64,000 nt of DNA from Marinilabiliaceae bacterium JC017 (lineage in GTDB: Bacteria > Bacteroidota > Bacteroidia > Bacteroidales > Marinilabiliaceae), in contig RHGE01000018.1 of NCBI GenBank assembly GCA_004296775.1, forward strand, positions 3 through 64,002, in the 5' to 3' direction. The translations under genes were made by a program, and so were the position numbers. How positions within the stretch are numbered: the stretch's first letter is position 1; every line of letters begins with the position of its first letter. Under the pieces are notes generated by a model. It was given only the letters and a program-made list of their open reading frames with translations. It ran no database searches and was not told where the DNA came from. This document shows, piece after piece, positions 23,971-40,501 of this stretch.

Positions 23971-25083
23971 TTATACCTTAATGAAAATGCGGTTTTTATA
24001 GAGCAACCAGCCGATAAACCAATACATGGCAATGTGGGACAAGGCAAATAGTAAGGATCCGTTTAACTCACCGGCCAACGGCACAAAAACGGTTTGATAA
24101 AGGCCGGAATAGCCATTTAATACTTTTCCGTCAGCACCGGTGATGTGAATAAAGCGAAACAGACTCTTCACCCAAAACACAGAAAGGGCAAAAATAAACA
24201 GTGGATTCATTCCGAAAACCACGAAAAATGAGGTCCACTTTTTATAGCCTTTAATGTCGATGATCCAAACCAATATGGCCAGCAAGGTGGTGCCTAAACC
24301 GGCGGTATAAACCACATAGGAGCTGGTCCAAAGGGGTTTGTTAATAGGGAAAACCAATCCCCACAACCAACCTACAACAATACCGGCAGCACCAAAAGCA
24401 ATTAATTTCAACGGCACCTTCTCTTTAGTGGTATTCTTGATGAGATACCCAACTAAATAACCTAGTAACACAGTTACGATAGCAGGGATGGTACTAAGCA
24501 AACCTTCCGGATCGAATGAGATTCCAAAGCCATGATACATATGGCTTTCTCCCAGGACAAAACGGTCGATGGCAATGGTGGCATTGTGCTCCAGACTAAA
24601 TGGATCGGCGCCGCCCAACATGGCCAACAGGCCCCAATAGGCCAATAAGATGACTGCTCCAATAATGGGCACATACTTTGGACGCGCTGCTAAAACAATT
24701 AGCGAGGCAAACAGATAACAAATGGCGATGCGTTGCAAAACACCTAAGATTCGCAAGGAGCTAAAATCGCACATCCACTGCGGGAAAGAGTTCAGGAACA
24801 AACCAATTCCAAAAATTAATACCGAACGCTTTCCCACCTTAAGCAATGATGCCTTGTTGAGGGAATTATTGTATTTAGAAAATGAAAAGAACATGGAAAC
24901 TCCCATCACAAAAAGGAAAAAGGGAAAAACCAGGTCTGTTGGTGTACACCCATGCCAGGCCGAATGCTTCAACGGTGCATAGATATGCGCCCAGCTACCG
25001 GGTGTATTTACTGTTATCATTCCGGCTATAGTGATGCCCCGCAAGACATCAAGTGCCAGATAACGTTGACTTTTACTACTCAT
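23971..25083 (-). CDS. murT: DUF5009/HGSNAT-like membrane protein (NagX/MurT type)
   Basis: 370 aa with about ten membrane segments. It starts with YLALDVLRGITIAGMITVN and contains HGCTPTDLVFPFFLFVMG, the signature of heparan-alpha-glucosaminide acetyltransferase-like proteins (COG4299, DUF5009). As I recall, the Tannerella forsythia MurNAc inner-membrane transporter MurT belongs to this group and sits with MurK and MurQ. NagX proteins accompany GlcNAc catabolism genes elsewhere. Here the presence of murK-murQ and namZ in the window makes MurNAc uptake the best guess. The symbol is tentative because transport rather than acetyl transfer is inferred from relatives. Confidence 0.72.
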   Translation of the reverse strand: MSSKSQRYLALDVLRGITIAGMITVNTPGSWAHIYAPLKHSAWHGCTPTDLVFPFFLFVMGVSMFFSFSKYNNSLNKASLLKVGKRSVLIFGIGLFLNSFPQWMCDFSSLRILGVLQRIAICYLFASLIVLAARPKYVPIIGAVILLAYWGLLAMLGGADPFSLEHNATIAIDRFVLGESHMYHGFGISFDPEGLLSTIPAIVTVLLGYLVGYLIKNTTKEKVPLKLIAFGAAGIVVGWLWGLVFPINKPLWTSSYVVYTAGLGTTLLAILVWIIDIKGYKKWTSFFVVFGMNPLFIFALSVFWVKSLFRFIHITGADGKVLNGYSGLYQTVFVPLAGELNGSLLFALSHIAMYWFIGWLLYKNRIFIKV

Positions 25084-25362: not shown

Positions 25363-27207
25363 TTATTTTTCCGCTTTTTTAATACCGAAGGTTGGATCTA
25401 TTTTCAGGAATTTAACCACAAAGAAACCTGGAATAGTACAGATCATCACCCAAATGAAGAAATTCTGATAACCTAGAATTTCCTGTAACCAACCCGATAT
25501 CATGCCCGGCACCATCATACCCAATGCCATAAAACCGGTACAGATGGCAAAGTGAGCGGTTTTACTCTTACCCTCAGCAAAGTAAATCATATAAAGCATG
25601 TAAGCGGTAAATCCAAACCCATAACCAAATTGCTCAATGGCCACACTGGTGGAAATAATCCACATACTAGAGGGCGTATAGAACGAAAGGAATACGTATG
25701 TAAGGTTTGGCAGGTTCATGGAAAGGGTCATCCACCAGATCCAATATTTCAATCCTTTGTTGGAAGCAACCCAGCCGCCTAAAAGACCACCCAGCGTTAG
25801 AAAAACAATACCTATAGTACCATAAATTAACCCCACATCACTGGTTGTTAATCCCAAACCTCCCGCTTCACGGTTATCCAGCAAAAAGGGAGAAGCCAAT
25901 TTCACCAGCTGACTCTCGCCCAACCTGAAAAACAGGAAGAAAGACAAGGCCACTCCCACATTCTCTTTCTTAAAGAACGATAAAAAGGTATTACCGAACT
26001 CTTGCAGCATGTTTTTCCCTTCCGAAACGGCAGCATCCAAAGCAGGACGAGGTAATGCAAACCTATGATATAGAAAGAAAACAAAAAACAGACCGGCCAG
26101 AATCACAAAGGTCATCGACCAGGCATATGGAATATTACCTGACAAGCCTTCGAATGAAGCACTGGTTTTTTGATCCAATTTAGGATCGGTTTGAACCAAT
26201 ACCCAGGCATTTTTATTCCAGTTATCACCATTGAAACTGAGACGTTCGCCGGCAACCAGCTTCAGGTCTTTATCTCCCTTTTTACGGTTCACATTTAACA
26301 CCACTGTTTCTCCCTCTTTGGGAGCAGAAGAGAGATGAATACCAATTACCCCTACATTGCCTTCAACGCCATCGAACTGGGTAACGGCTTGTTTCTTGCC
26401 CCATTGTTCTTTCAGCGTCTCCTTAAGAGGATCTGAGACATGTGAAGTCCACCAGGAATCTTCCTCAGCAACCACCGCTTTTTCTTTGGGAACAAAACCA
26501 TTTTCCAGGTTATTGTCAGCCACCCACTGCTTTATTTCATTGGCTTTTTCGGGTGTGATTTTCTCCAACCCTATTACCATCTTCTCTTCGCTTAACACAA
26601 AATGCCGATCCCCATCCATGGCCTGATAAGTCACAGCCTGCTCCGGAAGGATTAATTCTGAGGCCGCAGATTGGGTTACCACCTCAAAATGCAATGGTTC
26701 CATCCCCGTACTGGACTCAAAAAATCCGGCCAGAATGATCAACAGTCCCTGCCCGGTAATCATGGCCAACCGATAAAAGGTACTTCTGATTCCAATAAAA
26801 TAAGCCTGTTTATGCTCCTCCAGTCCCAGCATATAAAATCCATCGGCCGCAATATCATGAGTAGCAGAACTAAATGCCAGCAACCAGAAGAACGCCAACG
26901 TATATCTAAAAAAACCGGGAACAGGAATGGTTAAGGCGACACCAGCCAGGCCGGCACCAACCAATAATTGCATCACAATGATCCACCATCTTTTGGTTTT
27001 AAGCAAATCCACTACCGGACTCCAAAATGGCTTAATCACCCAAGGCAGATAGAGCCAACTGGTGTATAACGCAATATCAGAATTAGATATCCCCATCCGC
27101 TTATACATGATAACCGATACGGTCATCACCACGACATAGGGTATTCCTTCAGCAAAATAGAGAGATGGGATCCATGCCCATGGTGATCTTTTTTTCCCCT
27201 GTTCCAT
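25363..27207 (-). CDS. AmpG-like MFS permease with large extracytoplasmic insert
   Basis: 614 aa. The N-terminal half (WIPSLYFAEGIPYVVV, KPFWSPVVDLLKT, SSATHDIAADGFYM) is typical of the peptide-acetyl-CoA/AmpG transporter family, which imports GlcNAc-anhMurNAc muropeptides. After about five membrane helices there is a hydrophilic stretch from about residue 175 to 365. It is unlike a normal AmpG and should face the periplasm. The remaining helices follow to the C-terminus, with FRLGESQLVKLASPFLL. Expected cargo is muropeptide or a disaccharide. It lies 146 bp downstream of the GH9-CE4 gene in the same direction, so the hydrolase and permease may be one unit. Confidence 0.85.
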   Translation of the reverse strand: MEQGKKRSPWAWIPSLYFAEGIPYVVVMTVSVIMYKRMGISNSDIALYTSWLYLPWVIKPFWSPVVDLLKTKRWWIIVMQLLVGAGLAGVALTIPVPGFFRYTLAFFWLLAFSSATHDIAADGFYMLGLEEHKQAYFIGIRSTFYRLAMITGQGLLIILAGFFESSTGMEPLHFEVVTQSAASELILPEQAVTYQAMDGDRHFVLSEEKMVIGLEKITPEKANEIKQWVADNNLENGFVPKEKAVVAEEDSWWTSHVSDPLKETLKEQWGKKQAVTQFDGVEGNVGVIGIHLSSAPKEGETVVLNVNRKKGDKDLKLVAGERLSFNGDNWNKNAWVLVQTDPKLDQKTSASFEGLSGNIPYAWSMTFVILAGLFFVFFLYHRFALPRPALDAAVSEGKNMLQEFGNTFLSFFKKENVGVALSFFLFFRLGESQLVKLASPFLLDNREAGGLGLTTSDVGLIYGTIGIVFLTLGGLLGGWVASNKGLKYWIWWMTLSMNLPNLTYVFLSFYTPSSMWIISTSVAIEQFGYGFGFTAYMLYMIYFAEGKSKTAHFAICTGFMALGMMVPGMISGWLQEILGYQNFFIWVMICTIPGFFVVKFLKIDPTFGIKKAEK

Positions 27208-27352: not shown

Positions 27353-29839
27353 TTACAACTCTTTATTGTCAAACTTTTTAAACCGGTACCCCTTCTCAGC
27401 GAAAGTATCGATGATCTCACTTAATTTGAAATAAAACTTATCTTTTCTATCAGGGTGCGTACCCAGATGAATCAATACGATCGCCCCGTTCAAACCATTT
27501 TCATGATTCGCTTCATAGGCTGCCATCCGCTTAAGAAGCTCATCCGATGTTTTATAATTTTTCATGGATGGAATGGTATAATCCGCATTGGTGCCCACTC
27601 CTGAAGTGAAATTCACGAGGGTTATGCCCCTATTCTTACTCCAGTTGGTAATGGCCCGGTTATGCCACTCATAAGGTGGTAAAAACCACCGAGCCTCTTC
27701 CTGTTTCACATTAAAACCAGCTAATTCCCTGTAATTAGCTTTTATATCTTCGTCAAACTCTTTTTGTGACACCAGCAAGGAGTCGCGCTTCTCCCACGGC
27801 GCATACAACAGGTGCCTGTCGGAATGGGGCCCCACATAATGCTTTTGGTTCACCATGCGCTTAATATATCTGGCATTTTCTTTTTCTCTCAGGAAATTCC
27901 CGGTGAGAAAAAAAGAGACTTTCACCTTTTTCTTTTTAAGCACATCCAGGATATAATCAGCTCCGTCGCCATGTTCATCGGCCGAAAAGACCAGGTATAT
28001 ATTTTTTGCATCAGGTGTCACCCGAATGACAGCACCTTGCCTGTCGATATGGGGCTTTGCTTTAGAAACCTGCTGTTTCAATCCTTCCTTTTCCATGGAT
28101 GACAGGTAATAGCTCAGACTGGCCGTTCCATCCATGGTAGGCTCATTGGTACTGTAATCCCCCATATCGTCATGATAGACGGCCTTACCGTGCTGAAAAG
28201 GCGCATACATATCGTCCCTCATCAGATGAATACCGCGCAATCCTTCATAAATTTTCCGGTAAACGGGTCCGTCAACCAGGCCGCCATAAGTGGTTTCATC
28301 CATTATAAAAGTGATGGCTGAATGCGGATAACGGGGATAATCACCACCCGCCGGCAAACCACACACCATGGTCGTTCCCCAGGGATTACAACCAAACAGC
28401 CAATCTCTCAATGCTGCTTCCATCTCCATATAAGATGAATCTTGTGTTGCTTCATAATAAAGCCTGGCCTGGGTAATGGCTGCTGCATTTAAATTATTGG
28501 AACACCAGATGAAAGGTATTCCATTAAGGAAAGGATCCTCCTTGGCTCGTTGCCAAATGGCTTCCAACCCGTCTTTCAAAAATTCGTTATAACGTGAACT
28601 ATTCTCTCCGGCCAAAATAGCCTGTTGGGCATGACCAAGGTTAACAAACGGATAATATTGGTAGTGCCGGGCCGTTCCTTTTTGCATCCACGGAGTAACC
28701 GGTTCCAGTTGGCCCCAATAATCGGCTTGCTTTAAATATTTTTGGTCCCCGGAGACATGAAACAGCTCCCAGGCAGCCAACTCCAGGTCATCGGTGTAGT
28801 TGTTTTCCTCATAAAAATAAGGCGACACATTACAGGCGGTTTGTGTTTCCCCCAGATCGGTGAGCGCAAAATCAAAGGCATCCTGTGCCTTCCCTTTTAG
28901 TTTATCCGCAAATGCGGGATCAATATCTTTAAATATGGCGGCTCCCATAGCAAAAGAGGAGCAATATTTTCCGGCAGTGGAAGACACCCCGGTGGTTCGG
29001 TTTTTATGCTTGGCCAAACCCTGAGGTTTACCGGTTACAAAGTAAACAGGGCGATAGAGGCCATTGCCGTAAGAAACAGAATCTTTATTGGGCAGGCGGT
29101 AACCCCGGTGATCACGGTCATCAGCAATTTGATTAAACATGACACCGCTATCGGGATTCATTTTCACCATCCACTCCAATCCCCAGCGAACCTCATCCAG
29201 AATATCGGCAATGCCATTACTTCCTTTATGGCCTTTGGCATCGTAATGATCCTGATAAACACCGGGATTCATTTTATAGGCAAACATCATTTGATAAATG
29301 GCATTGGCCGAGGTGGTAAGGTATTGCAGATAATCAGAAGCATCATGCCATCCGCCGGTCACATCAATCTTTTCGCCGGTACGGGTGGGATGATCCACAA
29401 TAAAACCATCATGCGTATGGCAGGAATCTTTCAGGAAAGGATTATAACCACACCGCTGTTGCCGCATATAGTTTAGCACAAAATCGGCGGTTCCTTTATA
29501 TACTGCGGCATCAATTTGAAAAACGGGTGAATGCGTGTCACCTACTTTCACATAGTAGCCTCCCGGCGTCTCTAAAGAAGAAAAATTCAGCCTGGCAGCT
29601 GCTTTCATTCCCCAATTATCTCCTTTAAACACCTGGCATTGGCCGGAAAAAACTACACGATCAGTAAGCGCATGACACACTTCAAATGTTTTGTCGTTAA
29701 GGGTATCGGTTGAAAGCCAAACCGCCACCTTTACCGAGCGTGGCAGATAACCCAATTGGTTAACACGTATCCAGGAAGCTGCCTGCAACTGAAACAGCGT
29801 CCCCAGACAAAACAGAACAATGCAGATTTTTTTTACCAT
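27353..29839 (-). CDS. GH9 glycoside hydrolase fused to NodB-type (CE4) polysaccharide deacetylase
   Basis: I use the Met at 29839 because it gives a clean signal peptide (MVKKICIVLFCLGTLFQLQA); the longer frame to 29941 adds an unlikely extension. 828 aa. An N-terminal Ig-like CelD domain (about 22-115) is followed by a GH9 (alpha/alpha)6 domain with the nucleophile-activating motif GWHDASDY (D166, D169) and the acid region STNEPTMDGTASLSYY. From about residue 590 comes a NodB fold (VFSADEHGDGADYIL, HSDRH, LPPYEWHN, IVLIHLGTH). Its first motif has DE where CE4 enzymes have DD. Some GH9 enzymes are exo-glucosaminidases, so coupled deacetylation and trimming of amino-sugar chains is plausible but unproven. 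Confidence 0.85.
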   Translation of the reverse strand: MVKKICIVLFCLGTLFQLQAASWIRVNQLGYLPRSVKVAVWLSTDTLNDKTFEVCHALTDRVVFSGQCQVFKGDNWGMKAAARLNFSSLETPGGYYVKVGDTHSPVFQIDAAVYKGTADFVLNYMRQQRCGYNPFLKDSCHTHDGFIVDHPTRTGEKIDVTGGWHDASDYLQYLTTSANAIYQMMFAYKMNPGVYQDHYDAKGHKGSNGIADILDEVRWGLEWMVKMNPDSGVMFNQIADDRDHRGYRLPNKDSVSYGNGLYRPVYFVTGKPQGLAKHKNRTTGVSSTAGKYCSSFAMGAAIFKDIDPAFADKLKGKAQDAFDFALTDLGETQTACNVSPYFYEENNYTDDLELAAWELFHVSGDQKYLKQADYWGQLEPVTPWMQKGTARHYQYYPFVNLGHAQQAILAGENSSRYNEFLKDGLEAIWQRAKEDPFLNGIPFIWCSNNLNAAAITQARLYYEATQDSSYMEMEAALRDWLFGCNPWGTTMVCGLPAGGDYPRYPHSAITFIMDETTYGGLVDGPVYRKIYEGLRGIHLMRDDMYAPFQHGKAVYHDDMGDYSTNEPTMDGTASLSYYLSSMEKEGLKQQVSKAKPHIDRQGAVIRVTPDAKNIYLVFSADEHGDGADYILDVLKKKKVKVSFFLTGNFLREKENARYIKRMVNQKHYVGPHSDRHLLYAPWEKRDSLLVSQKEFDEDIKANYRELAGFNVKQEEARWFLPPYEWHNRAITNWSKNRGITLVNFTSGVGTNADYTIPSMKNYKTSDELLKRMAAYEANHENGLNGAIVLIHLGTHPDRKDKFYFKLSEIIDTFAEKGYRFKKFDNKEL

Positions 29840-30415
29840 AATCGTAAATTCTTTGTTTTTGAATTCATCATAACAAAAACATAAAAGGAGGGAAAATGCA
29901 GAAAAGATTTTTAAATCTACACACCATTTTCTTTTCCACATTTTCCTTCTCCCTCACTAACATCAAACTATTAACAATAACAAATTCGACCTTAAATTAT
30001 ATACAATAGACAAAGATGGCCGTTGTCCATATTGTCTTCATGATAACATTGAAAACTTGTTGAATAATTAAAATAAATAGGAATCACTATCCCCTTTGGA
30101 AATAAACCAAATACCAAATGAACCAACCGCAGTAAGCTATTCTTTCTCCTATTAAGGATGAAGTGTTAACAGGCTGGGCAGATGCTTACTATAATCCACC
30201 TCACCCCGGCCCTCTCCTTAGGCGAGGGAGACTGCAAACCTGATGTTTATGCTCATATTGATTAGGTATAGCGAAATCTTGTTATATAATAGACATTAGA
30301 CTGACATTTTGACCATCAACAGTTTTGTCTATTAGATATAAATTATTATTCAATTACTTACAAAAATTTAACAAACTATTGAAATAATTACACATACCCT
30401 TCTCTTATCCTGGGA
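29840..30415. other. Spacer with repeats
   Basis: It contains 'atacaatagacaaagatggcc' text related to 4100-4130, a CCGGCCCTCTCC...GGCGAGGG hairpin near 30209-30231 that looks like a dispersed palindrome, and an R4 copy at 30276-30387. No gene is seen. Confidence 0.5.
30276..30387 (-). repeat. R4 repeat, copy 3 (inverted, shorter)
   Basis: AATAGACATTAGACTGACAT to AATTTAACAAACTATT aligns with the 23.8 kb copy but lacks part of its left end. Confidence 0.65.
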
Positions 30416-31753
30416 TTAGTAGCGCTTATCCAGGCTGGCACCCCTGAAATAATGCATTAATATTTCTTTATAGCTATAACCTTTAGCCCCCATAACAGCG
30501 GCCCCGATCTGACACAACCCTACGCCATGTCCCCATCCTGCTCCATGTAGCACAAACCGCACCTCTTCACCGGTAGTGATTTTTTCAACCACAAAAGCAG
30601 AACTATACAGGTGGGATTCGGATAATGCTTTCCGTATCACGAGCTCTTTACCAATGGTAAGCGTCTTTTTCTCGCCTACTATTTTTAATTTAATCAAACG
30701 ACCGGAAGTACCCCGTTCCACCGGAATAAGATCACTCACCAATCCAAAATCAATGTCTGTCCGCTTCTTCACTAATTCACTCAGCTCTTGCTGTGTATAC
30801 GCCACTTTCCACCGGTAAAAATCCTGTGTTTCCTGGTCATAATCATTCAACACCTGGGAAAGCACTTGCTGATCGGTGGTATTACAAAATGCCTCCGGGC
30901 TACCAAGAATCCACTTATTTGCCGCTTCTTCCTTCTCCAGATCCATACTATACCCTTCAGGGTTCACATCATTGTCGGCGAACTTCTGCAGATAAGGGTG
31001 ATTTACCGGTTCCCACACATTTTCAAACACCTCGGTAACACCCCCGCAACATTTGGAGAAACGAGCATCACAAATAGCTTCGCCATTGGCCAGAATCTCA
31101 CCCCAGGTCTCTTTCACCGCTTCTTCAACCAAAGGGGTTGAGGAACGTGTGATTCCTTGGTAACGCTGGCAATGATCATCGGCACACACATCAAAATTAA
31201 TGTGATCTTCCCGGTCATACCACCTTATCAGTTCTTCATCACTCTCAAATACCGACTCATATTTCTCCTTACTATCCTGTAAAGCTTTATTCTTTTCTAT
31301 CTGTGCCAAAAGCCAGCTACGCGAAATCACCGCATGAGCCTTCAGTAACTCTTTTGAGGAAGTGGCACTCATCTCCGATGAAATTACACTCATCAGGTAA
31401 TCTTCCACAGATAATATATTTATAGCTGTAATTTTTTCATTTTCAATCAACAGCTTTAATCCTCCCTTAAAAACCTGGTCTTCATCCCGCTCCCAATGGA
31501 AATTTATTCCAATGGTAACATCATGTAAGGTGAAGGGGCCTGCTGTTTCTCCGCAAGGAAAGAATGTCACACCGTTTGGCACAACCAACACTTCACCCTC
31601 TTTTTCCAAACGAATTTTTTCTCCCTGAATGGATGCTTGCCAGGTTCCATCAAGCACATTTTCTTTTTGCTCATCAGAAAATTTACCTGACAACGTGAAG
31701 CTAAACTCCTTCTTGAACAGAATTCCTACTTTTATTTCCGGGGTCTTTTTCAT
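30416..31753 (-). CDS. SpoIID/LytB-domain protein without visible signal peptide
   Basis: I start at ATG 31753 (MKKTPEIKVGIL); the longer frame begins with TTG. 445 aa. The SpoIID core is clear: INILSVEDYLMSVISSEMSAT and KAHAVISRSWLLA with the conserved Glu of the SSEM segment, CQRYQGI, and GWGHGVGLCQIGA near the C-terminus. SpoIID enzymes are lytic transglycosylases that cut denuded glycan strands. The lack of a signal peptide suggests work on imported fragments in the cytoplasm, or secretion by an unseen route. It ends a run of same-strand genes (GT2, DUF4922, GNAT, SpoIID). Confidence 0.85.
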   Translation of the reverse strand: MKKTPEIKVGILFKKEFSFTLSGKFSDEQKENVLDGTWQASIQGEKIRLEKEGEVLVVPNGVTFFPCGETAGPFTLHDVTIGINFHWERDEDQVFKGGLKLLIENEKITAINILSVEDYLMSVISSEMSATSSKELLKAHAVISRSWLLAQIEKNKALQDSKEKYESVFESDEELIRWYDREDHINFDVCADDHCQRYQGITRSSTPLVEEAVKETWGEILANGEAICDARFSKCCGGVTEVFENVWEPVNHPYLQKFADNDVNPEGYSMDLEKEEAANKWILGSPEAFCNTTDQQVLSQVLNDYDQETQDFYRWKVAYTQQELSELVKKRTDIDFGLVSDLIPVERGTSGRLIKLKIVGEKKTLTIGKELVIRKALSESHLYSSAFVVEKITTGEEVRFVLHGAGWGHGVGLCQIGAAVMGAKGYSYKEILMHYFRGASLDKRY

Positions 31754-31927
31754 TTTCTTGTCATTCAAATCGCCATAAAAAGATCAGTTACTCGTCTCCA
31801 ATCACTCCCTCATGGCTGGTTTCACTCAGTTTATAATCACACTAGTATACTAATACAGACAAAACATGACACGCTTAAAACCAATTCTCTTATCACTTGG
31901 CACATCACATCGCGTTCAGCTTCATCT

Positions 31928-32842
31928 TTAAGGTTTCAATATCTTTTCAAAACGCCAAAACACCCTATCCACGCGGGCATTGGCATAATGCGAATAAAAA
32001 TCAATGGGACCTACCCATGGTATCACCGAACAAGCCAGGTGCATCTCTTTCATATCCTGTAAACAACGCTTTAATAATATGCCGCCAATACCTTTCCCTC
32101 TCAAATCGGGATGGGTACCCATGGGGCCAAACCAACCGGTTCCTTTATTATTGGCATCATGGGCAGAAAAACCTTTCACTTTACCATCCAATAAGGCAAT
32201 ATGCAAAGTAACGGGTGTATTCTTAAATGCCATCTCCACCTCATTGCCCCATAAAGCCCATTCATCCTGAATAAACTCCAAAACAGCCTGTTTGTCTCCA
32301 GGTAATGCCCTACGAACCTCAATGGCATGTTGCTTCAACTGCTCTTCCTCGGCATCAGTCGACCAATTCTTTCCTTGCAAATTCACCAGCAAATTGGAGG
32401 TATCGCCAAAACGTTTAAAACCATTGCGCATGGCGAAACAAAGGGCTGGCGTATAACGCGGATCAATACCCGGCATCCAATAGTTTAAAGGCACATCGTA
32501 TATCCTCACCACATCAACCTCCCTGGCATTGAAACGTTCCTCCAACAGATTATATAAGGTGGAAGCCACTTTTTGACGTCTGTAATCTTGATGAACCGCC
32601 ATCAGCTTTATATAACCATAACGTGTTCCTCTGATATCACGGATTACGCCCTGCATAAAACCGATAATCTGGTCGCTGTCATGCATAAGAAAAGTCATTT
32701 CAGGCTCCCAATCAGGATCGCCCATGAGTTTTTCTTCCAACAACTCACTGGTAATGGCATCATATTCCCAGCTGCGATTAAGAAAACCGGTTAGTTCCTC
32801 CAGATCACTTTCAGAAAAATTGGTAACAGGGTATTTAAGCAT
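31928..32842 (-). CDS. Tandem GNAT acetyltransferase
   Basis: I start at ATG 32842, because the longer frame begins with TTG. About 304 aa with two GNAT folds. The first has the acetyl-CoA loop VHQDYRRQKVASTL; the second has THPDLRGKGIGGILL followed by an aromatic C-terminal strand (DFYSHYANA). It is a soluble cytoplasmic protein. Position between SpoIID and DUF4922 suggests an amino-sugar or peptide amine as acceptor, but nothing in the sequence fixes the substrate. The second domain looks catalytically intact; the first may be structural. Confidence 0.8.
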   Translation of the reverse strand: MLKYPVTNFSESDLEELTGFLNRSWEYDAITSELLEEKLMGDPDWEPEMTFLMHDSDQIIGFMQGVIRDIRGTRYGYIKLMAVHQDYRRQKVASTLYNLLEERFNAREVDVVRIYDVPLNYWMPGIDPRYTPALCFAMRNGFKRFGDTSNLLVNLQGKNWSTDAEEEQLKQHAIEVRRALPGDKQAVLEFIQDEWALWGNEVEMAFKNTPVTLHIALLDGKVKGFSAHDANNKGTGWFGPMGTHPDLRGKGIGGILLKRCLQDMKEMHLACSVIPWVGPIDFYSHYANARVDRVFWRFEKILKP

Positions 32843-32954
32843 CTCTTTAAAATTTAATGTCAAAATTCAGAGACACACGACATTGGTTATCTTGTTTTTT
32901 TCAAAACATTAATAGCTACGCCACTGTGCCCCTGTAATTTCCTCCATACAATAT

Positions 32955-33893
32955 TTATAATGACGATCGTATCAACTCCATTACTACGGCATCATCATAG
33001 CACACCTGGTTAAAGATATCCTGTATAACCTCCGCATCAATTTTGTTGAAATCTTCCTCTCGCGGCGTGATAAATACACCTCCCATATCCACTGAAGCAG
33101 GACTAATCGTGAACTGTGCCTCTCCCTCAGCAAAGAATTGCGACGGACGATGTTGCTTTCTGGGGAAAACATGGACCACATACGTTCCATCTTCCATTGA
33201 AGCGAGAATATTTAGCATGGGCTCGAGCTCTTCTGACTGCATCTTTTCCAGACTATCATACAGCTTGTAAAAAAGCTTCGCCAAACTAGCCTTATTCTTG
33301 CTCTTCAGCGTAATAACCCCTCTTAGGTATTTTTCCCAATGAAAAACAGATACCTCATCTACACATCCAACCTCCTTGCAATGATTCCCATTTTTAAATT
33401 CATTCTCGATGGGTAGAAATCCTTTTATCCCGGCTTGAAAATGAAAATGGTCAGGCGCAGAAGCACCACATTTCGGGCCATTATAAAAAACAGTGAAATC
33501 ATCCAATTCTTTTGCCAAATCCAGCATGGCCTCAAAATGGCCACGAATACGCTGATCATTATGGGCATTTTTTGGAATAGTCAAATGTTCAGGAAAAATA
33601 GGAAACGGATTAACCAAAACGGTATAATCACTCCCGAACTCCAATCCCCTTTGCTGAGCCGGCAAATTTTTCGCACAAAGAAAACAAGGCCTTGCCTCAA
33701 TTGATTTAGCATCTACCTTAGCCGCTGACGAGCGAATACGCTCCGGGTTAAACTGTACTAAAATCTCATGCCCGTTAAAAGCTAACGCTTTTACCTTTAC
33801 CTTCTTTAACCCTTTATAGTTATTTGCAGCCAGATCCCACTCTGAGATCTGGCCTTTTATTAATTCTCTTGCTTCCTTAGAAAATATCGTCAT
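32955..33893 (-). CDS. DUF4922 HIT-like nucleotidyltransferase/phosphorylase
   Basis: The start at 33893 (MTIFSKEARELIKG) leaves 14 bp to the GT2 stop; the longer frame would overlap that gene. About 312 aa. It shows a CxxC near residue 70 (RPCFLCAKNLP), LVNPFPIFPEHLTI and the active-site text SAPDHFHFQAG. This is a His-x-His-x-Gln arrangement as in GalT/Ap4A phosphorylase branches of the HIT superfamily. It probably transfers or phosphorolyses a nucleotidyl group, perhaps on a sugar phosphate. DUF4922 is how I remember the family; its function is not established. The tight spacing with GT2 indicates a shared transcript. Confidence 0.78.
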   Translation of the reverse strand: MTIFSKEARELIKGQISEWDLAANNYKGLKKVKVKALAFNGHEILVQFNPERIRSSAAKVDAKSIEARPCFLCAKNLPAQQRGLEFGSDYTVLVNPFPIFPEHLTIPKNAHNDQRIRGHFEAMLDLAKELDDFTVFYNGPKCGASAPDHFHFQAGIKGFLPIENEFKNGNHCKEVGCVDEVSVFHWEKYLRGVITLKSKNKASLAKLFYKLYDSLEKMQSEELEPMLNILASMEDGTYVVHVFPRKQHRPSQFFAEGEAQFTISPASVDMGGVFITPREEDFNKIDAEVIQDIFNQVCYDDAVVMELIRSSL

Positions 33894-33907
33894 AACAATT
33901 AGTCTCT

Positions 33908-35386
33908 TTATACTAGCTGACCGTTTTTCACATACTGTTGACGTGCCCAAAATTCAAGTGTACGTATCTTATCCTTGTAGAAATTATGGGCATTCTCCTT
34001 ATTTATATCTAATGAAGCATCGGAGTTGTCATCCCATCGGCGACATAAATACAATGGATCATAAATCCGTCCGATCTGGTAATGGCGACTAATATTCAAG
34101 CCCAATGCATAGTCTTCACCGTAACTGGTATTAGGAACTTTTACATCTCGCAATACGGGAGTATAAAAAGCCCGTGGAGCCCCAAGACCGTTAATCCGCA
34201 AGGCATTGTTACGGCCATTATCCGGGGTCCATTCCTTATGATCGATCAGTCCCGGAGGAATTACATCAAGTTTAAAGTCTACCATTTGGTAAGAACCCAC
34301 CACCATGGCACAGTTCTGTTCATAGAAGGCTTTTACAATTCGCTCAACCACATTATCATCAATGTAGAGGTCATCACTATCCAATTGAATAGCAAACTTA
34401 CCACACTTTGAACTCGCTACTGCTTCATTCCAGCATCCTCCGATTCCAAGATCCTTACGCTCCGGAATAATATGTATCACTCGCTCATCTTTTTCTGCAA
34501 AAGACCGAATCAAATCGGTTGTTCCATCAGTGGAGTAATTATCCACAACAATCAAGTTGAAAGGGAAAGATGTTTTCTGTTCCAATACCGACTTAATGGC
34601 ATCAGCAATTGTTTTTGCCCGATTACGCACCGGAATAACAACCGATGCTTCCACCGGAAAATCAGAAGCTGAAAATTCAATTTTCTTGAAACGTGGCTCC
34701 AGGTAAGCACCAACCTTCTTCAAGTGATCGGTACATACCTGCTCCATTTCTATTTGCACCTCTCTATTGCGTGGATCTACATAATCAAACATTTTTTCTC
34801 CCGACTTACGGGTATCTAGCTCCACTTCAGTATAAAGCAACTCGGGCATATGTAATAATCTCTGGCCCTGCGAGATTTTAAGGCGTAAATCATACAATGC
34901 CGCAAACTTATACTGTTGATCCATTTGCGCAATAGCTTCCTTCAATGCGGCCGTTTTATAAACTATTAGCGACCCGAAATTAAAGTCATTCCGGAGACTG
35001 CCTTCCTGATATTCTACCACCGGATGTGCATTAAGCTTACCTTCTTTCATTTCGTAATAAGCACTGTAAACCAATCCTGCTCCGGCATCCTCACAAGCTT
35101 GCATCATACGTTGAAGAGCACTCTGTCCCAAATTCAACGGCTGTGTTTTTGTATAAAAAGCGGTGAATTCGGTATTTGCTTTGGCTGCAACTTCTTTGAG
35201 CGTGTCGGTAGACACTAAATCTCCCGTCAACCATTCTACGCCCCCAACTTCAATATCTGATGGTTCTTTTGCGACTAAAAAAATATCCTCCACACACTCT
35301 GCCTTTTGAAGTGATTCAACAGTAAGCGTCACTTCTTCCTTACTGGCATAAGGCAAAAAAAAGGTAATCAACTTTTCCATATTCAT
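33908..35386 (-). CDS. Glycosyltransferase family 2, double-domain
   Basis: 492 aa, soluble. The C-terminal half (about 240-440) is a canonical GT-A family 2 domain: ASVVIPVRNRAKTI, IVVDNYSTDGTTDLI, GGCWNEAVASSKCGKFAIQLDSDDLY with its metal-binding DSDD, and a later GEDYALGL. The N-terminal half (MEKLITFFLPYASKE...) resembles a second, degenerate GT2 fold without an obvious DxD. No membrane anchor is seen, unlike cell-wall GTs. It is the first gene of the GT2-DUF4922-GNAT-SpoIID run. Donor and acceptor are unknown. Confidence 0.83.
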   Translation of the reverse strand: MNMEKLITFFLPYASKEEVTLTVESLQKAECVEDIFLVAKEPSDIEVGGVEWLTGDLVSTDTLKEVAAKANTEFTAFYTKTQPLNLGQSALQRMMQACEDAGAGLVYSAYYEMKEGKLNAHPVVEYQEGSLRNDFNFGSLIVYKTAALKEAIAQMDQQYKFAALYDLRLKISQGQRLLHMPELLYTEVELDTRKSGEKMFDYVDPRNREVQIEMEQVCTDHLKKVGAYLEPRFKKIEFSASDFPVEASVVIPVRNRAKTIADAIKSVLEQKTSFPFNLIVVDNYSTDGTTDLIRSFAEKDERVIHIIPERKDLGIGGCWNEAVASSKCGKFAIQLDSDDLYIDDNVVERIVKAFYEQNCAMVVGSYQMVDFKLDVIPPGLIDHKEWTPDNGRNNALRINGLGAPRAFYTPVLRDVKVPNTSYGEDYALGLNISRHYQIGRIYDPLYLCRRWDDNSDASLDINKENAHNFYKDKIRTLEFWARQQYVKNGQLV

Positions 35387-35518: not shown

Positions 35519-38500
35519 TTATTCAAAAAAACTCAGAATTTGTGCCATTAACGTCACTCGTTGACTTTCTTTCTTAATGGCTTCAAATGGAAATCCAAGA
35601 ATCACCGTACGGTAATCTCCATTATACGCCACCCCGGCACTACTATTATTCTCTCCATATCTAAACGCAGTAATTGCCTGCTTTCCAAACGGCTCAATAG
35701 CATCTGGTGCTTCAACCTGATAAATAACCGGATCATAGGTTGTATTAAAAGAGAACTCTTCGTTAAAATATTCATTTCCATAATCTGAAGAATAAACACT
35801 TCCAGACTTTACTACATGGTTAGTACGCCACTTGAAATGTAATATTTCATTGGCAAACTTAGCAGCAATGGTATCATTATTAAGCACGTAATCAGATCCC
35901 ACATAAGCACCTGAAATGAACATATTTACACCCATCCGACTCAAGACAGTTAACTTATCCATGAAAGCAGGAGTATAAATCTGATAATCTGTTTTGGCTT
36001 TATCGATAAACTGAGGAGTTGTTTTCTCCTCACCCAAAATAATATCTACCATAGCATAATTCTCTGCCCCGTAACCCTTCTCACAAAATGCTTCATCACT
36101 CACCGATACAAAAGAATACCCGGCAGCCATAATTGCCTGACCATGAATAAAAGGAAAATCAAAACTGTTACCTGGAATGATCTTACCTTCCATATCTCCA
36201 TAACTGGCTCCCCATCCGGGATTATCATCATCTAACCAAGCCGAATTTTTATCAAAATCATATTGATACCCGGTAAAACCAATTTTACATTTATCAGCTA
36301 CTCCTTGATCATCCCACCAGGCAACACCGGCAAATCCGTCCTTATCCACAAAAGCAGGGCCACTTATGCGATCAAAACCATTCACCACCAACACATCCCC
36401 TTTAGCATTACTTTTCACACCTAAAGACAACACTTCGCTGGCAAAACTCTCGCCTCCATCATTCAGGGCTGTAACTTTAAAACCATAAATTTCATCCAAC
36501 TGATCAATGGATACTTCAAAGGATGTACCGCTTACTATTGTTCCATTATCAAAACCATTATCACCCAAACGACGGTATACTTTATACTTTGTAGGAACAG
36601 CAGATGCTTCCAAGGGGTCCATCACCGGTTGCCAGGTCAATAGAAAAGTATTTTCACCTTTTGAAGTAATTGAAAAATGGTCTACCGGAAGCGGTTGCAC
36701 CACATACTCACGCCCTTCCTGAAATGCCTGAAACTTCAGAATCCCCTTATATATGGCACGACTAACAGCAAAGCGGAATCGAGGATCAAGACCAAATTTT
36801 ATATCAGACATATTCTGATGGGATAACAATTCCAATAACATGGTTGGAACATTTGGTCGCCAGGCTTCGGAATACTGCTTATCCCACATACCTCTTCGTG
36901 TCCAATCTTCACGATAAAGCTTTCTTACATCATTAACTACCTGGGATTGTATCAAATCTGTCAAATCCCGGCTGGCAAGTTTAGACTGTCCATTGGGGAA
37001 AACTCCATTATCCCTGACAGAACTATATATTCCAAGTGTTCCGATAATCGAATCGTTTGGAGTTACACCAGCATCCGTATGGAAAGCAAAAGCCAGATCA
37101 ATCGGAATATTTAATCCTTCCACCTCCCTATTTTTTGTAGGACCATTGGGCGCACCCATTAAGTAATTCACCCATTCCCCACGAGACTGATAGTCATCGT
37201 TATAATCATTCTTTTCATCATTCAAACTAAACACCAAAGTGTCGGGCATACCAGCATATTGCAAATAATATCTCGCTGCCTCCAAATAGCGAGGCTTACC
37301 GCTAAGCTTCCATTTGAATTGCTCAGGATCAACAGATATAACATCATCATCCTTGCTGGAATTTGCGTTCAAGGACCATTTATTTGGGGCTAATTCCCTG
37401 GACGGACGTCTTGCCACATTTCCCATTCCACCGCCAAACTTAACCGCATCCAACGAAACATCTCCATCAACAGACACCACATCAACAGCACCTTTCAAAG
37501 GGTTTTTCCCAGCATCAAAGATGAATTTACCCAGGTAAATCCAGGTTCCGCCTCCCATCTTTTGATTTACAAGAAACGAAGTTGCTCCTCCCGTATGATG
37601 CACCACATATTTCACCTTCGCAGTCGATGCATCATCCCTACCATATGAAACATAAACAGCATATTCCCCCTTTTCAGGAATTTCAGGAATATATTCAGCA
37701 ACTTTACCACCATTCTCTTTATTCACAAGATAGGAAGTCCCCATCTTAAAGGGATTTTCACCCACATACAATGTATCCTTAACAGCAAATCCATTGAATT
37801 TTTTCTTTATTTGCACTCCATCAGACAATTCAAAACCCAAAGCTTTACCAAGCTCATCATTATCCACGATCACCTCATTAATTTGAACATCCCGCTCTCT
37901 GGGTAAGAAAACATTGGCACCGGCATTTTCAAGCATTGGCACTAAATAAGGCAACACATATTCCATAGGAGAAACATCCTCTACGGCTCCATATAAACGT
38001 GCACGCTGCCACTCCCATCGATCTAACTTTGACTCATAATACCACCCATGACTATGCCAAAGCGCTATATAATTATTATATAATCCATCCGTTGACTTAT
38101 AAGCATCCTGCTTACAAATAAAAGGATCCTTTTTTATTCCACCTTGATCAAGACGTGCTGTATCGATCCCTAAATCAGATCGCAAAGCATTCGGCACTAA
38201 AAAACTTATTTCCTTATCATCAGTAAATACTTTAATGGAATAATTCTGAAATTTTCTCCCCAAAGCACTATAAATCTGATTTTTCAAGATGTCAATCTCA
38301 TTTTCTCTAAAAGGCATATAAGATAATGGCTTGGAAAAATACAACTGGATTGTTTTTGATTCTCTGGATACATTTAAAGAATCAATCTTCATCTTTCCAA
38401 GGTGCCCCCACTCAGAGAAAACGTCATCCAGTTTCTCTAATCTATTCTCAGCTCTCCTCGTAAACTTAGGGTCTTTTTCTTCCTGTGCTCTGGTATAAAA

Positions 38501-38551
38501 TCCACACAGAAGCCCTGCTATTATTGACAAACAAGTGATTTTTAAGGTCAT
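35519..38551 (-). CDS. N-acetylmuramoyl-L-alanine amidase (Amidase_3) with golvesin-like and FnIII modules
   Basis: 1010 aa. A signal peptide (to about residue 22, TRAQ) precedes a split Amidase_3 domain. The first zinc-ligand region is NYIALWHSHGWYY (H166/H168), the second is LAFAFHTDAG (H491) and the catalytic glutamate is E574 (MLLELLSHQNM). A golvesin/xanthan-lyase C-terminal-like module (about 225-375) is inserted between them. An FnIII domain (about 640-720) and a C-terminal domain of unknown type follow. It should cleave the MurNAc-L-Ala bond outside the cytoplasm. It is divergent from murK across a shared control region. Confidence 0.85.
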   Translation of the reverse strand: MTLKITCLSIIAGLLCGFYTRAQEEKDPKFTRRAENRLEKLDDVFSEWGHLGKMKIDSLNVSRESKTIQLYFSKPLSYMPFRENEIDILKNQIYSALGRKFQNYSIKVFTDDKEISFLVPNALRSDLGIDTARLDQGGIKKDPFICKQDAYKSTDGLYNNYIALWHSHGWYYESKLDRWEWQRARLYGAVEDVSPMEYVLPYLVPMLENAGANVFLPRERDVQINEVIVDNDELGKALGFELSDGVQIKKKFNGFAVKDTLYVGENPFKMGTSYLVNKENGGKVAEYIPEIPEKGEYAVYVSYGRDDASTAKVKYVVHHTGGATSFLVNQKMGGGTWIYLGKFIFDAGKNPLKGAVDVVSVDGDVSLDAVKFGGGMGNVARRPSRELAPNKWSLNANSSKDDDVISVDPEQFKWKLSGKPRYLEAARYYLQYAGMPDTLVFSLNDEKNDYNDDYQSRGEWVNYLMGAPNGPTKNREVEGLNIPIDLAFAFHTDAGVTPNDSIIGTLGIYSSVRDNGVFPNGQSKLASRDLTDLIQSQVVNDVRKLYREDWTRRGMWDKQYSEAWRPNVPTMLLELLSHQNMSDIKFGLDPRFRFAVSRAIYKGILKFQAFQEGREYVVQPLPVDHFSITSKGENTFLLTWQPVMDPLEASAVPTKYKVYRRLGDNGFDNGTIVSGTSFEVSIDQLDEIYGFKVTALNDGGESFASEVLSLGVKSNAKGDVLVVNGFDRISGPAFVDKDGFAGVAWWDDQGVADKCKIGFTGYQYDFDKNSAWLDDDNPGWGASYGDMEGKIIPGNSFDFPFIHGQAIMAAGYSFVSVSDEAFCEKGYGAENYAMVDIILGEEKTTPQFIDKAKTDYQIYTPAFMDKLTVLSRMGVNMFISGAYVGSDYVLNNDTIAAKFANEILHFKWRTNHVVKSGSVYSSDYGNEYFNEEFSFNTTYDPVIYQVEAPDAIEPFGKQAITAFRYGENNSSAGVAYNGDYRTVILGFPFEAIKKESQRVTLMAQILSFFE

Positions 38552-38814: not shown

Positions 38815-39657
38815 ATGATTCTAATAGCAGACAGTGGTTCTACGAAAACAGAATGGAATTTGATGACGAACGAAAAAATAGTAAAATCATTTTTCACTTC
38901 TGGAATTAATCCCTTTTATCAGGATTCCGATGCCATCTACCAGAGCATTCAAAAAGAATATCCTGACATCCAAACAATAACTCCTGAATACATCTATTTT
39001 TATGGCGCTGGATGTGCTAATGAAGAAAAACAACAAGTGGTAAAAACAGCTCTTGAAAAAATCTTCAACACATCCAAAATAGAAATAGGCAGTGACCTTT
39101 TGGCAGCAGCTAGATCGTTATGTCAAACAGAATCAGGTATCGCTTGTATATTAGGAACCGGATCAAACTCCTGTTACTACAATGGCCAATCAATAGAATC
39201 AAATGTTTCCCCTTTGGGATTTATCCTGGGTGACGAAGGTAGTGGTGCTATTTTAGGTAAAAAACTAATTTCTGACATATTAAAAAAACAACTACCCGAA
39301 CCTATCATAAAACGGTTCTATGAGACTTACCCAGTCACACCAACAGAAATACTTGACAGAGTCTATAAACAACCTTTTCCAAACAGGTACCTTGCCCAAT
39401 ACACAAAATTCATATCAGGCAACATACAAGAAAAGGAATTAGAAAAGCTTGTTTCTGATGGATTCAAGGAATTCATCATTCGCAATATCTTACAATATCC
39501 ACAAGCTTCAAAAGTAAAAATACATGTAACTGGCAGTATCGCTTTCCACTTTAAAGACCAACTAATTGACAGCTTAAACTATTTCAATTTACAAATCGGA
39601 AGAATAAGCCAGGCTCCCATGGAAAACCTAATTGAATATCACAAAGAACAACACTAA
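38815..39657 (+). CDS. murK: BadF/BadG-family amino-sugar kinase (MurNAc/GlcNAc kinase, MurK-like)
   Basis: 280 aa, an ASKHA-fold kinase. The phosphate-1 motif is LIADSGSTKTEWN at the N-terminus; GTGSNSCYYNG and LGDEGSGAILGKKL mark phosphate-2 and the sugar-binding region; HVTGSIAFHFK is the adenosine motif. The best-known relatives next to murQ phosphorylate MurNAc at O-6. GlcNAc kinase activity is a common second activity. The stop lies 8 bp before the murQ ATG, so the two are co-translated. It acts in the cytoplasm on sugar delivered by a MurT-type importer without phosphorylation, in contrast to the PTS route of E. coli. Confidence 0.87.
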   Translation: MILIADSGSTKTEWNLMTNEKIVKSFFTSGINPFYQDSDAIYQSIQKEYPDIQTITPEYIYFYGAGCANEEKQQVVKTALEKIFNTSKIEIGSDLLAAARSLCQTESGIACILGTGSNSCYYNGQSIESNVSPLGFILGDEGSGAILGKKLISDILKKQLPEPIIKRFYETYPVTPTEILDRVYKQPFPNRYLAQYTKFISGNIQEKELEKLVSDGFKEFIIRNILQYPQASKVKIHVTGSIAFHFKDQLIDSLNYFNLQIGRISQAPMENLIEYHKEQH

Positions 39658-39667
39658 ATACAACATA

Positions 39668-40501
39668 ATGAGTAATTCCAATAAACAAACAAATAAATCC
39701 AGCATAACCGAAGCCCCATCTCACTTTGATAATCTCGAAAAGATGACGGTACTGGAGCTATTAACTAACATCAACAAAGAAGACGCAAAGGTCCACCAGG
39801 CAGTAGAGAAAGCTGTTCCCCAAATCCAACAATTAGTTGAACGAATCGTTGAACGAATGCAGAAAGGCGGCCGTGTTTTTTACCTGGGAGCAGGAACTAG
39901 TGGCCGATTAGGAGTGCTGGATGCCTCTGAGTTACCACCCACATTCGGCGTACCGGATAACATGGTAATCGGACTTATAGCAGGCGGTGACGTAGCCTTG
40001 AGAAAAGCGGTTGAAGCCGCCGAAGATGATCCGGAGAAAGCATGGGCTGAACTTCAACAATACAAACCAACCCCAAGAGATACAATTATTGGTATCGCTG
40101 CCTCCGGCACCACACCATATGTTATTGGCGGGATTAATAAAGGCCGGGAAAACGGTTTGCTCACAGGTTGCATCACCTGTAATCCATACAGTAAAATTGC
40201 AGAAGCTACAGAATTCCCGATTGAAGCTATTGTAGGACCGGAATTCGTCACTGGCAGCACTCGTCTTAAAGCTGGTACTGCGCAAAAAATGATCCTGAAC
40301 ATGATAACAACTACCATCATGATTAAACTAGGACGCGTAAAAGGCAATAAAATGGTAAACATGCAATTGACTAACAAAAAACTGGTAGAACGTGGCACTC
40401 AAATGATTATGGATGAACTAAAAATTCAACATGACGAAGCTAAACGACTGCTCCTATTGCATGGATCAGTAAAAGAAGCCATCGAATCATTCAACAAATA
40501 A
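39668..40501 (+). CDS. murQ: N-acetylmuramic acid 6-phosphate etherase
   Basis: I start at 39668 (MSNSNKQTNK), 8 bp after murK; the longer frame overlaps murK. 277 aa. An SIS domain contains YLGAGTSGRLGVLDASELPPTF, with E88 matching the catalytic Glu83 of E. coli MurQ, and GGDVALRKAVEAAEDD, with E119 matching the second conserved Glu. Further motifs are GIAASGTTPYVIGGI and the C-terminal LLLLHGSVKEAI. It cleaves the lactyl ether of MurNAc-6-P to give GlcNAc-6-P and D-lactate in the cytoplasm. NagA and NagB for the next steps are not in the window; the D-lactate may go to the FAD/Fe-S enzyme at 5020-7869. Confidence 0.96.
   Translation: MSNSNKQTNKSSITEAPSHFDNLEKMTVLELLTNINKEDAKVHQAVEKAVPQIQQLVERIVERMQKGGRVFYLGAGTSGRLGVLDASELPPTFGVPDNMVIGLIAGGDVALRKAVEAAEDDPEKAWAELQQYKPTPRDTIIGIAASGTTPYVIGGINKGRENGLLTGCITCNPYSKIAEATEFPIEAIVGPEFVTGSTRLKAGTAQKMILNMITTTIMIKLGRVKGNKMVNMQLTNKKLVERGTQMIMDELKIQHDEAKRLLLLHGSVKEAIESFNK

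Follow-up and report, generated by a model that had tools for sequence, protein, structure and literature searches.

A co-inherited GT2, DUF4922 and SpoIID trio in peptidoglycan-salvage clusters of Bacteroidota probably processes imported cell-wall sugars

Which pathway is served by neighbouring genes for a glycosyltransferase, a HIT-type protein, an acetyltransferase and a SpoIID-family protein that lacks an export signal? This question is raised by a 64,000-nucleotide stretch of the Marinilabiliaceae bacterium JC017 genome (contig RHGE01000018.1; hereafter the window), where a sequence-only reading had flagged four such genes as an undescribed module, perhaps for re-using imported muropeptide sugars. 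A check of the open reading frames confirmed all four between 30416 and 35386 on the minus strand, in the following setting:

23971–25083, minus strand: NagX-like transmembrane protein (glucosamine N-acetyltransferase family; profile match below the curated cut-off)
25363–27207, minus strand: AmpG-family muropeptide MFS transporter
27353–29941, minus strand: secreted GH9 and polysaccharide-deacetylase fusion
30416–31768, minus strand: SpoIID-family glycan-cleaving enzyme without an export signal, 450 aa when read from a TTG (PF08486, TIGR02669)
31928–32863, minus strand: tandem GNAT protein, 311 aa, with two GNAT stretches
32955–33893, minus strand: DUF4922 protein, 312 aa (PF16269, 5e-65)
~33435–33449, minus strand: HxHxQ motif of the DUF4922 protein
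~33675–33686, minus strand: CxxC motif of the DUF4922 protein
33908–35386, minus strand: GT2 protein, 492 aa (Glycos_transf_2, 7e-24)
~34112–34120, minus strand: GED motif of the GT2 C-terminal, active-type domain, which also carries CRRW
~34370–34381, minus strand: LDSDD motif of the same domain
35519–38551, minus strand: secreted golvesin/fn3/Amidase_3-like protein, 1010 aa
38815–39657, plus strand: MurK/NagK-like amino-sugar kinase, transcribed away from the minus-strand genes
39632–40501, plus strand: MurQ, MurNAc-6-phosphate etherase (TIGR00274, above cut-off)

The flagged genes are thus embedded in a peptidoglycan-salvage cluster comprising amidase, AmpG, NagX, MurK and MurQ, and the amidase-like gene at 35519–38551 heads the likely operon. 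As in the known AmpG/MurTKQ clusters, an AmpG-family importer is adjacent, here with a mid-protein insertion of about 190 additional residues, and so are a MurK-like kinase and a MurQ etherase. No NamZ (YbbC) or MurT-type symporter label was found beside the window's genes; these occur in 39/101 and 17/101 related loci, respectively, and the clusters of relatives add NamZ, MurT-like and D-lactate-dehydrogenase-like genes. The GH9-deacetylase gene lies between SpoIID and AmpG in the window and in several relatives. The assignment of the cluster to peptidoglycan salvage is strong, while its exact reactions we infer; re-use of imported muropeptide sugars, as suggested beforehand, is well supported for the cluster by AmpG in 41/41 genomes carrying the genes described below and by the MurK, MurQ, NamZ, amidase and NagX neighbours. 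The module is nevertheless not undescribed: the operon was published for Tannerella forsythia in 2017 as ampG/murTKQ, with no function given to three of its genes (PMC5388701).

What is new here is that these three genes, GT2, DUF4922 and SpoIID, form an almost perfectly co-inherited trio. Among 296 Bacteroidota genomes scored for presence or absence, all three occurred together in 39 and two of them in 2, with no genome holding a single one (totals: strong DUF4922 matches in 41, GT2 orthologues in 40 and SpoIID orthologues in 40). The pattern holds also where the genes are unlinked. Each pair gives a Fisher p-value of about 1e-48, which does not yet allow for phylogeny and overstates independence, because presence or absence of the trio is largely fixed by family. 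Wherever both members of a pair share a locus they are co-oriented (80/80 loci for GT2/DUF4922, 64/64 for DUF4922/SpoIID), at median gaps of 11.5 and 5 bases and with 22 overlaps for each pair. Natural fusions join GT2 to DUF4922 (locus L032) and DUF4922 to SpoIID (loci L057 and L127), which ties the trio proteins together and places SpoIID in the cytosol; two further apparent fusions at locus L128 were rejected, their additional residues being out-of-frame sequence. In genomes where SpoIID was missing locally, or present only in a fused or broken frame, a genome search recovered it in 11/12.

A lack of conserved co-occurrence of the four flagged genes had been named beforehand as the refuting outcome; when examined, co-occurrence was far above chance for the trio, whereas the GNAT gene was not conserved. 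This gene does encode two GNAT stretches, as described, and where present it occupies the slot after DUF4922; however, it is found in only 4/101 loci. Acetylation by GNAT is therefore dropped from the core pathway, and the gene is an optional accessory passenger.

The distribution of the trio is linked to that of known recycling genes. In a comparison of 41 trio-positive with 39 trio-negative Bacteroidota genomes, AmpG was present in 41/41 against 7/39 and AnmK in 18/41 against 33/39, whereas MurQ showed no association (33/41 against 30/39). No AmpG-positive genome in this sample lacked both AnmK and the trio. AnmK is absent from 23 of the trio genomes; MurQ is found in 15 of these, and each of the remaining 8 carries a MurU-like gene (E 1e-33 to 1e-42). 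Since 18 genomes, the window's own among them, carry both AnmK and the trio, the trio is not just a substitute for AnmK. Nor is a substitution for AmgK-MurU supported, since MurU-like genes co-occur with the trio. Were the AmpG of these genomes to import chiefly GlcNAc-MurNAc, the dispensability of AnmK would have a different cause.

The GT2 protein was described as double, and two GT-A folds are indeed predicted, yet it has one canonical active site. The Glycos_transf_2 match covers residues 248–380, and D336, D338, D339, E424 and D425 are invariant across 74 sequences, giving the C-terminal GT-A domain its DXD and (E)D base. The N-terminal half is modelled as a second GT-A fold (AF2, mean pLDDT 91.8) with the two-domain chondroitin polymerase 2z86/2z87 as best PDB match; it is degenerate, however, with no conserved DXD and no conserved acidic pair in residues 74–90 in the same comparison, which rules out the bifunctional alternating polymerase that this match (K4CP) would suggest.

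The DUF4922 protein starts at an ATG (an in-frame TTG at 33950 would overlap GT2) and contains the HIT-type motifs reported for it, C70xxC73 and H149-x-H151-x-Q153, with H149 and H151 invariant and Q153 nearly so. Its AF2 model shows a two-domain fold nearest to yeast Apa2 (E 2e-10, at about 16–19% identity), which places it, as modelled, in the Ap4A-phosphorylase/GalT branch of the HIT superfamily. By analogy with this fold and its HxHxQ motif, nucleotidyl transfer is plausible, either as activation or as phosphorolysis.

SpoIID matches PF08486 (6e-23) and TIGR02669 (1e-48), both above cut-offs; its likely start is an ATG at 31753. The catalytic-type Glu132 (~31373–31375) is invariant and aligns with the Glu of 4rwr. 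The claim that it is signal-less extends well beyond the window, as a hydrophobic N-terminus is absent from this protein and from 98% of 66 orthologues. A SpoIID domain that has no export signal and is fused in relatives is no classical wall-cutting SpoIID. SpoIID enzymes cleave the MurNAc-GlcNAc bond of polymers; we know of no documented ring opening by them.

Taken together, the trio in Bacteroidota probably processes imported cell-wall sugars by a route not yet worked out. Our preferred reading, to which we give a probability of about 0.5, is that a conserved cytosolic trio downstream of AmpG takes the place of AnmK and converts the imported disaccharide to ordinary sugars by way of a nucleotide-linked step. 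The data show the folds and motifs, the missing export signals, the clustering, fusions and co-inheritance of the genes, their dependence on AmpG and the dispensability of AnmK; we infer substrates, direction and order of steps as follows. Outside the membrane, amidase and NamZ-type enzymes would release peptide-free glycan fragments, and AmpG would carry disaccharides into the cell, where the trio would turn them into non-anhydro MurNAc and a GlcNAc product. SpoIID may act at the MurNAc C1/anhydro position, by hydrolysis or ring opening rather than wall cutting. GT2 and DUF4922 would share a nucleotide-sugar intermediate, which GT2 makes or consumes and DUF4922 interconverts with sugar-1-phosphate via a nucleotidyl-histidine. 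Free MurNAc would then enter MurK-MurQ or AmgK-MurU, making AnmK dispensable. Against it, the scheme does not account for the need of a GT2 and a nucleotidyl enzyme in ring opening, and we found no biochemistry on any of the three proteins.

A specific version of this preferred reading, not a separate model, is an energy-saving split phosphorylase, which we regard as quite unlikely. Here SpoIID would first trim or open the (anhydro)MurNAc end, a reversed GT2 would move GlcNAc from GlcNAc-MurNAc to NDP, and DUF4922 would phosphorolyse NDP-GlcNAc to GlcNAc-1-phosphate and NDP. The nearest fold being that of a phosphorylase (Apa2), the GT2-DUF4922 fusion that suggests a common NDP-sugar, and the NDP-sugar phosphorylases among HxHxQ enzymes (plant GGP) all speak for it; however, reversing a GT2 on ordinary beta-glycosides is thermodynamically uphill, and the substrates are putative. 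A new AnmK-independent recycling route along these lines would have cytosolic SpoIID open the 1,6-anhydro ring of imported GlcNAc-anhMurNAc (or hydrolyse it to GlcNAc-MurNAc) and GT2-DUF4922 cleave the disaccharide via a nucleotide carrier to GlcNAc-1-phosphate and MurNAc with the bond energy saved, a proposal about which we are equally doubtful.

Synthesis in the forward direction is unlikely: DUF4922 would activate a salvaged sugar-1-phosphate to an NDP-sugar, GT2 would then load the sugar onto a lipid or an intracellular acceptor for protein or wall glycosylation, and SpoIID would recover it. The canonical DXD of the GT2 C-domain, nearest to synthetic enzymes (K4CP, TarS/TarP), and the description of the operon as glycosylation-related in the T. 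forsythia papers fit such a role, but AmpG in every trio genome suggests catabolic input, and acceptor, flippase or polymer genes are not consistently near in related loci. SpoIID might instead destroy MurNAc oligomers leaking in through AmpG while DUF4922 and GT2 remove or repair aberrant NDP-sugars, as animal GDP-glucose phosphorylase does. Such clean-up requires no fixed downstream route and matches the repair-type NDP-hexose phosphorylases in the DUF4922 superfamily, yet it seems very unlikely for a trio that is operonic with the main pathway and unusually conserved (mean column identity 63% for GT2, 60% for SpoIID). SpoIID might also be exported through a pathway not yet recognised and cut the wall glycan in the ordinary way, with no direct link to GT2 or DUF4922. 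This would agree with characterised SpoIID proteins, which work outside the cytoplasm (PMC6635528); the general lack of export signals, the two natural fusions in which SpoIID follows the C-terminus of a nucleotide-transfer enzyme and the near-perfect co-inheritance make it highly improbable.

T. forsythia and over half of the sampled trio genomes use AmpG without AnmK, the known enzyme for anhydro-MurNAc, and for T. forsythia this was raised as an open question (PMC7670621). The trio offers three named, co-inherited candidate genes for handling anhydro-MurNAc without AnmK, and since it occurs also in Bacteroides the question is directly testable. If the preferred reading is true, DUF4922 gains a pathway and the SpoIID fold, to our knowledge, its first role in the cytosol.

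The closest known system, and the one from which the salvage cluster itself was already known, is the T. forsythia ampG-ybbC-murTKQ operon (Tanf_08345-08385), which is under GppX control and includes "gtf, gtf, lytB" with no assigned function. Import of GlcNAc-(anh)MurNAc by its AmpG has been demonstrated (PMC5388701, PMC7670621), and the organism lacks AnmK (PMC7670621). The gene order is shared: a secreted 'xanthan lyase' (Tanf_08345, whose position the window's 1010-aa amidase-like gene holds), gtf, gtf, lytB (SpoIID) and ampG, then NamZ/MurT/MurK/MurQ; the gtf in the DUF4922 position is matched through the annotation in the 2017 figure legend, not by sequence. The window differs by its inserted GNAT and GH9-deacetylase genes, by NamZ/MurT not being adjacent, by its divergent MurK-MurQ and by an AnmK encoded elsewhere in the genome. 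The E. coli AmpG-NagZ-AnmK-MurQ route has AmpG import and the MurQ exit to GlcNAc-6-P in common with the trio genomes, although 23/41 of these lack AnmK; we know of no trio in that pathway. AmgK-like and MurU-like genes of the Pseudomonas-type anabolic route occur in many trio genomes, MurU-like ones in 8/8 of those without both AnmK and MurQ, but that route requires no DUF4922, GT2 or SpoIID, and MurU has an unrelated nucleotidyltransferase fold. DUF4922 shares its fold and HxHxQ motif with yeast Apa2 and GalT, and the motif with plant GGP (VTC2); unlike these, it is bacterial and operonic with GT2 and SpoIID. Finally, the trio SpoIID shares the SpoIID domain, catalytic Glu and GHGVG motif region with the proteins of sporulating clostridia and bacilli and of Chlamydiae, whereas those serve engulfment or septation and the trio protein, which has no export signal and in two relatives is joined to an enzyme of cytosolic type, belongs to a salvage operon.

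All four genes that the sequence-only reading had grouped are present as claimed, on one strand (profile matches from Pfam/NCBIfam):

33908-35386, minus strand, GT2 gene (Glycos_transf_2, 7e-24)
32955-33893, minus strand, DUF4922 gene with an ATG start (DUF4922, 5e-65)
31928-32863, minus strand, tandem GNAT gene (two GNAT stretches)
30416-31768, minus strand, SpoIID gene (SpoIID, 6e-23; TIGR02669, 1e-48)

An in-frame TTG for the DUF4922 gene, at 33950, overlaps GT2. On the same strand, a secreted golvesin/fn3/Amidase_3-like protein of 1010 residues is encoded upstream of GT2, and a GH9-deacetylase fusion, an AmpG-family transporter and a NagX-like protein downstream of SpoIID; genes for a MurK/NagK-like kinase and MurQ are divergent from these minus-strand genes. 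The window cluster is a peptidoglycan-salvage cluster. The fusion (27353-29941) joins a GH9 cellulase-type domain to a polysaccharide deacetylase that most resembles PdaA, a delta-lactam de-N-acetylase; a GH9 enzyme is unusual within a peptidoglycan cluster, and relatives sit at this position in some 14 loci. The AmpG homologue (25363-27207) carries about 190 additional residues between its two halves, missing from many relatives (430-450 aa).

We compared 101 DUF4922 loci: 80 named GTDB contigs (Bacteroidales, Cytophagales, Ignavibacteria/Melioribacter), 20 sampled genomes and the window. Near DUF4922 were found GT2 in 84 loci, SpoIID in 68, AmpG in 64, MurK-like genes in 47, amidase in 41, NamZ in 39, MurQ in 37, NagX in 26, a FAD/Fe-S 2-hydroxyacid (D-lactate-type) dehydrogenase in 23, an SSF symporter in 17 and GH9 in 14. 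GNAT was near in only four (L071, L073, L121 and the window), each time immediately after DUF4922. GT2 and DUF4922 share a strand in all 80 loci having both, and in 67 follow one another in that order no more than 150 bases apart (overlapping in 22); DUF4922 and SpoIID share a strand in 64/64, with 49 in that order at the same spacing (overlapping in 22). The dehydrogenase (970 aa; locus L095, 14972-17884, and 22 other loci) adjoins AmpG-NamZ-MurK-MurQ, which fits oxidation of the D-lactate that MurQ releases as a by-product. A secreted metallophosphoesterase plus PQQ-type beta-propeller protein (locus L121, 10630-12492, and 20 other loci) recurs directly ahead of GT2 in Bacteroides.

The GT2, DUF4922 and SpoIID genes (hereafter the trio) are also inherited together. 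Of 296 genomes sampled across the phylum Bacteroidota, 41 had a strong DUF4922 match, orthologues of SpoIID and of GT2 were each present in 40, and 39 carried the complete trio; genome G223 lacks SpoIID, G156 lacks GT2, and none of the 296 carries just one trio gene. The pattern spans nine families and about 34 genera, and persists where the genes lie apart, as in G070, with SpoIID on a separate contig. Genome searches recovered SpoIID in 11 of 12 named genomes in which it was absent, fused or broken at the neighbourhood, the exception being a 2.9-Mb MAG. The Fisher value for co-occurrence (~1e-48) overstates independence because trio presence is mostly fixed within families.

Fusions link the same genes in operon order: GT2-DUF4922 as a single 826-residue frame (locus L032, genome G230), and DUF4922-SpoIID in Carboxylicivirga linearis (L057, 758 aa) and a Bacteroidales MAG (L127, 755 aa). 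G230 has two GT2 copies, one adjoining SpoIID-AmpG without DUF4922 (contig C1, 171990-173447), the other fused to the genome's sole DUF4922 (C9, 83182-85125). An N-terminal hydrophobic segment above threshold was found in 2% of SpoIID orthologues and in 92-100% of amidase, NamZ and GH9 proteins. A SpoIID placed behind a signal-less nucleotide-transfer domain has no usual route to the wall, which supports a cytosolic location.

The DUF4922 AF2 model (mean pLDDT 94.6) matched yeast Ap4A phosphorylase Apa2 best in the PDB (2e-10, 16-19% identity), followed by DUF4931, GalT-like and GalT proteins; the profile recovers Apa2 by sequence as well (8e-6). Its motif takes the transferase/phosphorylase form HxHxQ, which GalT and the GDP-L-galactose phosphorylase of plants also have, rather than HxHxH, the form seen in hydrolases. 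The GT2 model (mean pLDDT 91.8) has two GT-A domains and matches chondroitin polymerase K4CP best. LDSDD, GED and RRW are invariant in its C-domain; the N-domain has no acidic pair at the DXD position, and its invariant set (P122, Q127, G129, S130, R132, Y165, R168) could bind a ligand. Searching with the SpoIID profile gave 4rwr, 5i1t and 5txu; the catalytic-type Glu lines up and is invariant. One chlamydial SpoIID is a hydrolytic muramidase acting on denuded glycans (PMC6635528), a precedent for a non-anhydro product.

Co-inheritance, fusions and absent signals strongly support joint action of the trio in the cytosol on AmpG cargo. We propose that AmpG would import peptide-free disaccharides, as others demonstrated in T. 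forsythia; that DUF4922, from its fold and motif, would interconvert an NDP-sugar and a sugar-1-phosphate; that GT2, given fusion and gene order, would share this NDP-sugar; and that SpoIID, as its family suggests, would target MurNAc C1. We give this salvage model bypassing AnmK, the known opener of anhydro-MurNAc, a probability of roughly 0.5; more broadly, it is quite probable that the trio is part of AmpG-dependent salvage.

In a pathway-gene sample of 80 genomes, AmpG occurred in 41/41 with the trio versus 7/39 without, and AnmK in 18/41 (one a fragment at a contig end) versus 33/39. All seven AmpG-carrying genomes without the trio have AnmK, so that none of the 80 has AmpG while lacking both (Fisher 0.01 within AmpG-carrying genomes). 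MurQ is present in 15 of the 23 genomes with the trio and without AnmK; a MurU-like gene, scoring below the curated cut-off at 1e-33 to 1e-42, is present in each of the other eight (G009, G019, G031, G116, G124, G140, G188, G294), in several cases adjoining an AmgK-like gene. Free MurNAc is the precursor common to the MurQ route (via MurK) and the MurU route (via AmgK). On the simplest reading, the trio yields ordinary MurNAc from AmpG cargo, possibly with the help of a NagZ-type enzyme. Alternatively, AmpG in these lineages may bring in mainly non-anhydro disaccharide, on which the trio would act otherwise. The T. forsythia cargo comprises both peptide-free GlcNAc-MurNAc and GlcNAc-anhMurNAc (PMC7670621).

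In the window's own genome an AmgK-like kinase is fused to a RapZ-type C-terminal domain (locus L150, 1327-2769; genome G000, contig C139), with a MurU-like gene about 7 kb beyond; the fusion recurs in L141 and L148. In E. coli, RapZ is an RNase adapter sensing glucosamine-6-P.

The module had been thought undescribed; this does not hold, as the cluster itself is already known from T. forsythia, where three of its genes have no assigned role, the literature found on the operon giving none for the gtf and lytB genes. In the literature found there is no description of a trio that spans the phylum, depends on AmpG, dispenses with AnmK and includes a cytosolic SpoIID. T. forsythia requires AmpG for growth on peptidoglycan and is without AnmK, the fate of the anhydro sugar having been left for later study (PMC7670621). 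Its operon Tanf_08345-08385 is a single, GppX-activated transcription unit in the order xanthan lyase, gtf, gtf, lytB, ampG, ybbC, murT-murK-murQ (PMC5388701). The gene order of the window cluster matches this operon, and from its position we infer that the second gtf is the DUF4922 gene.
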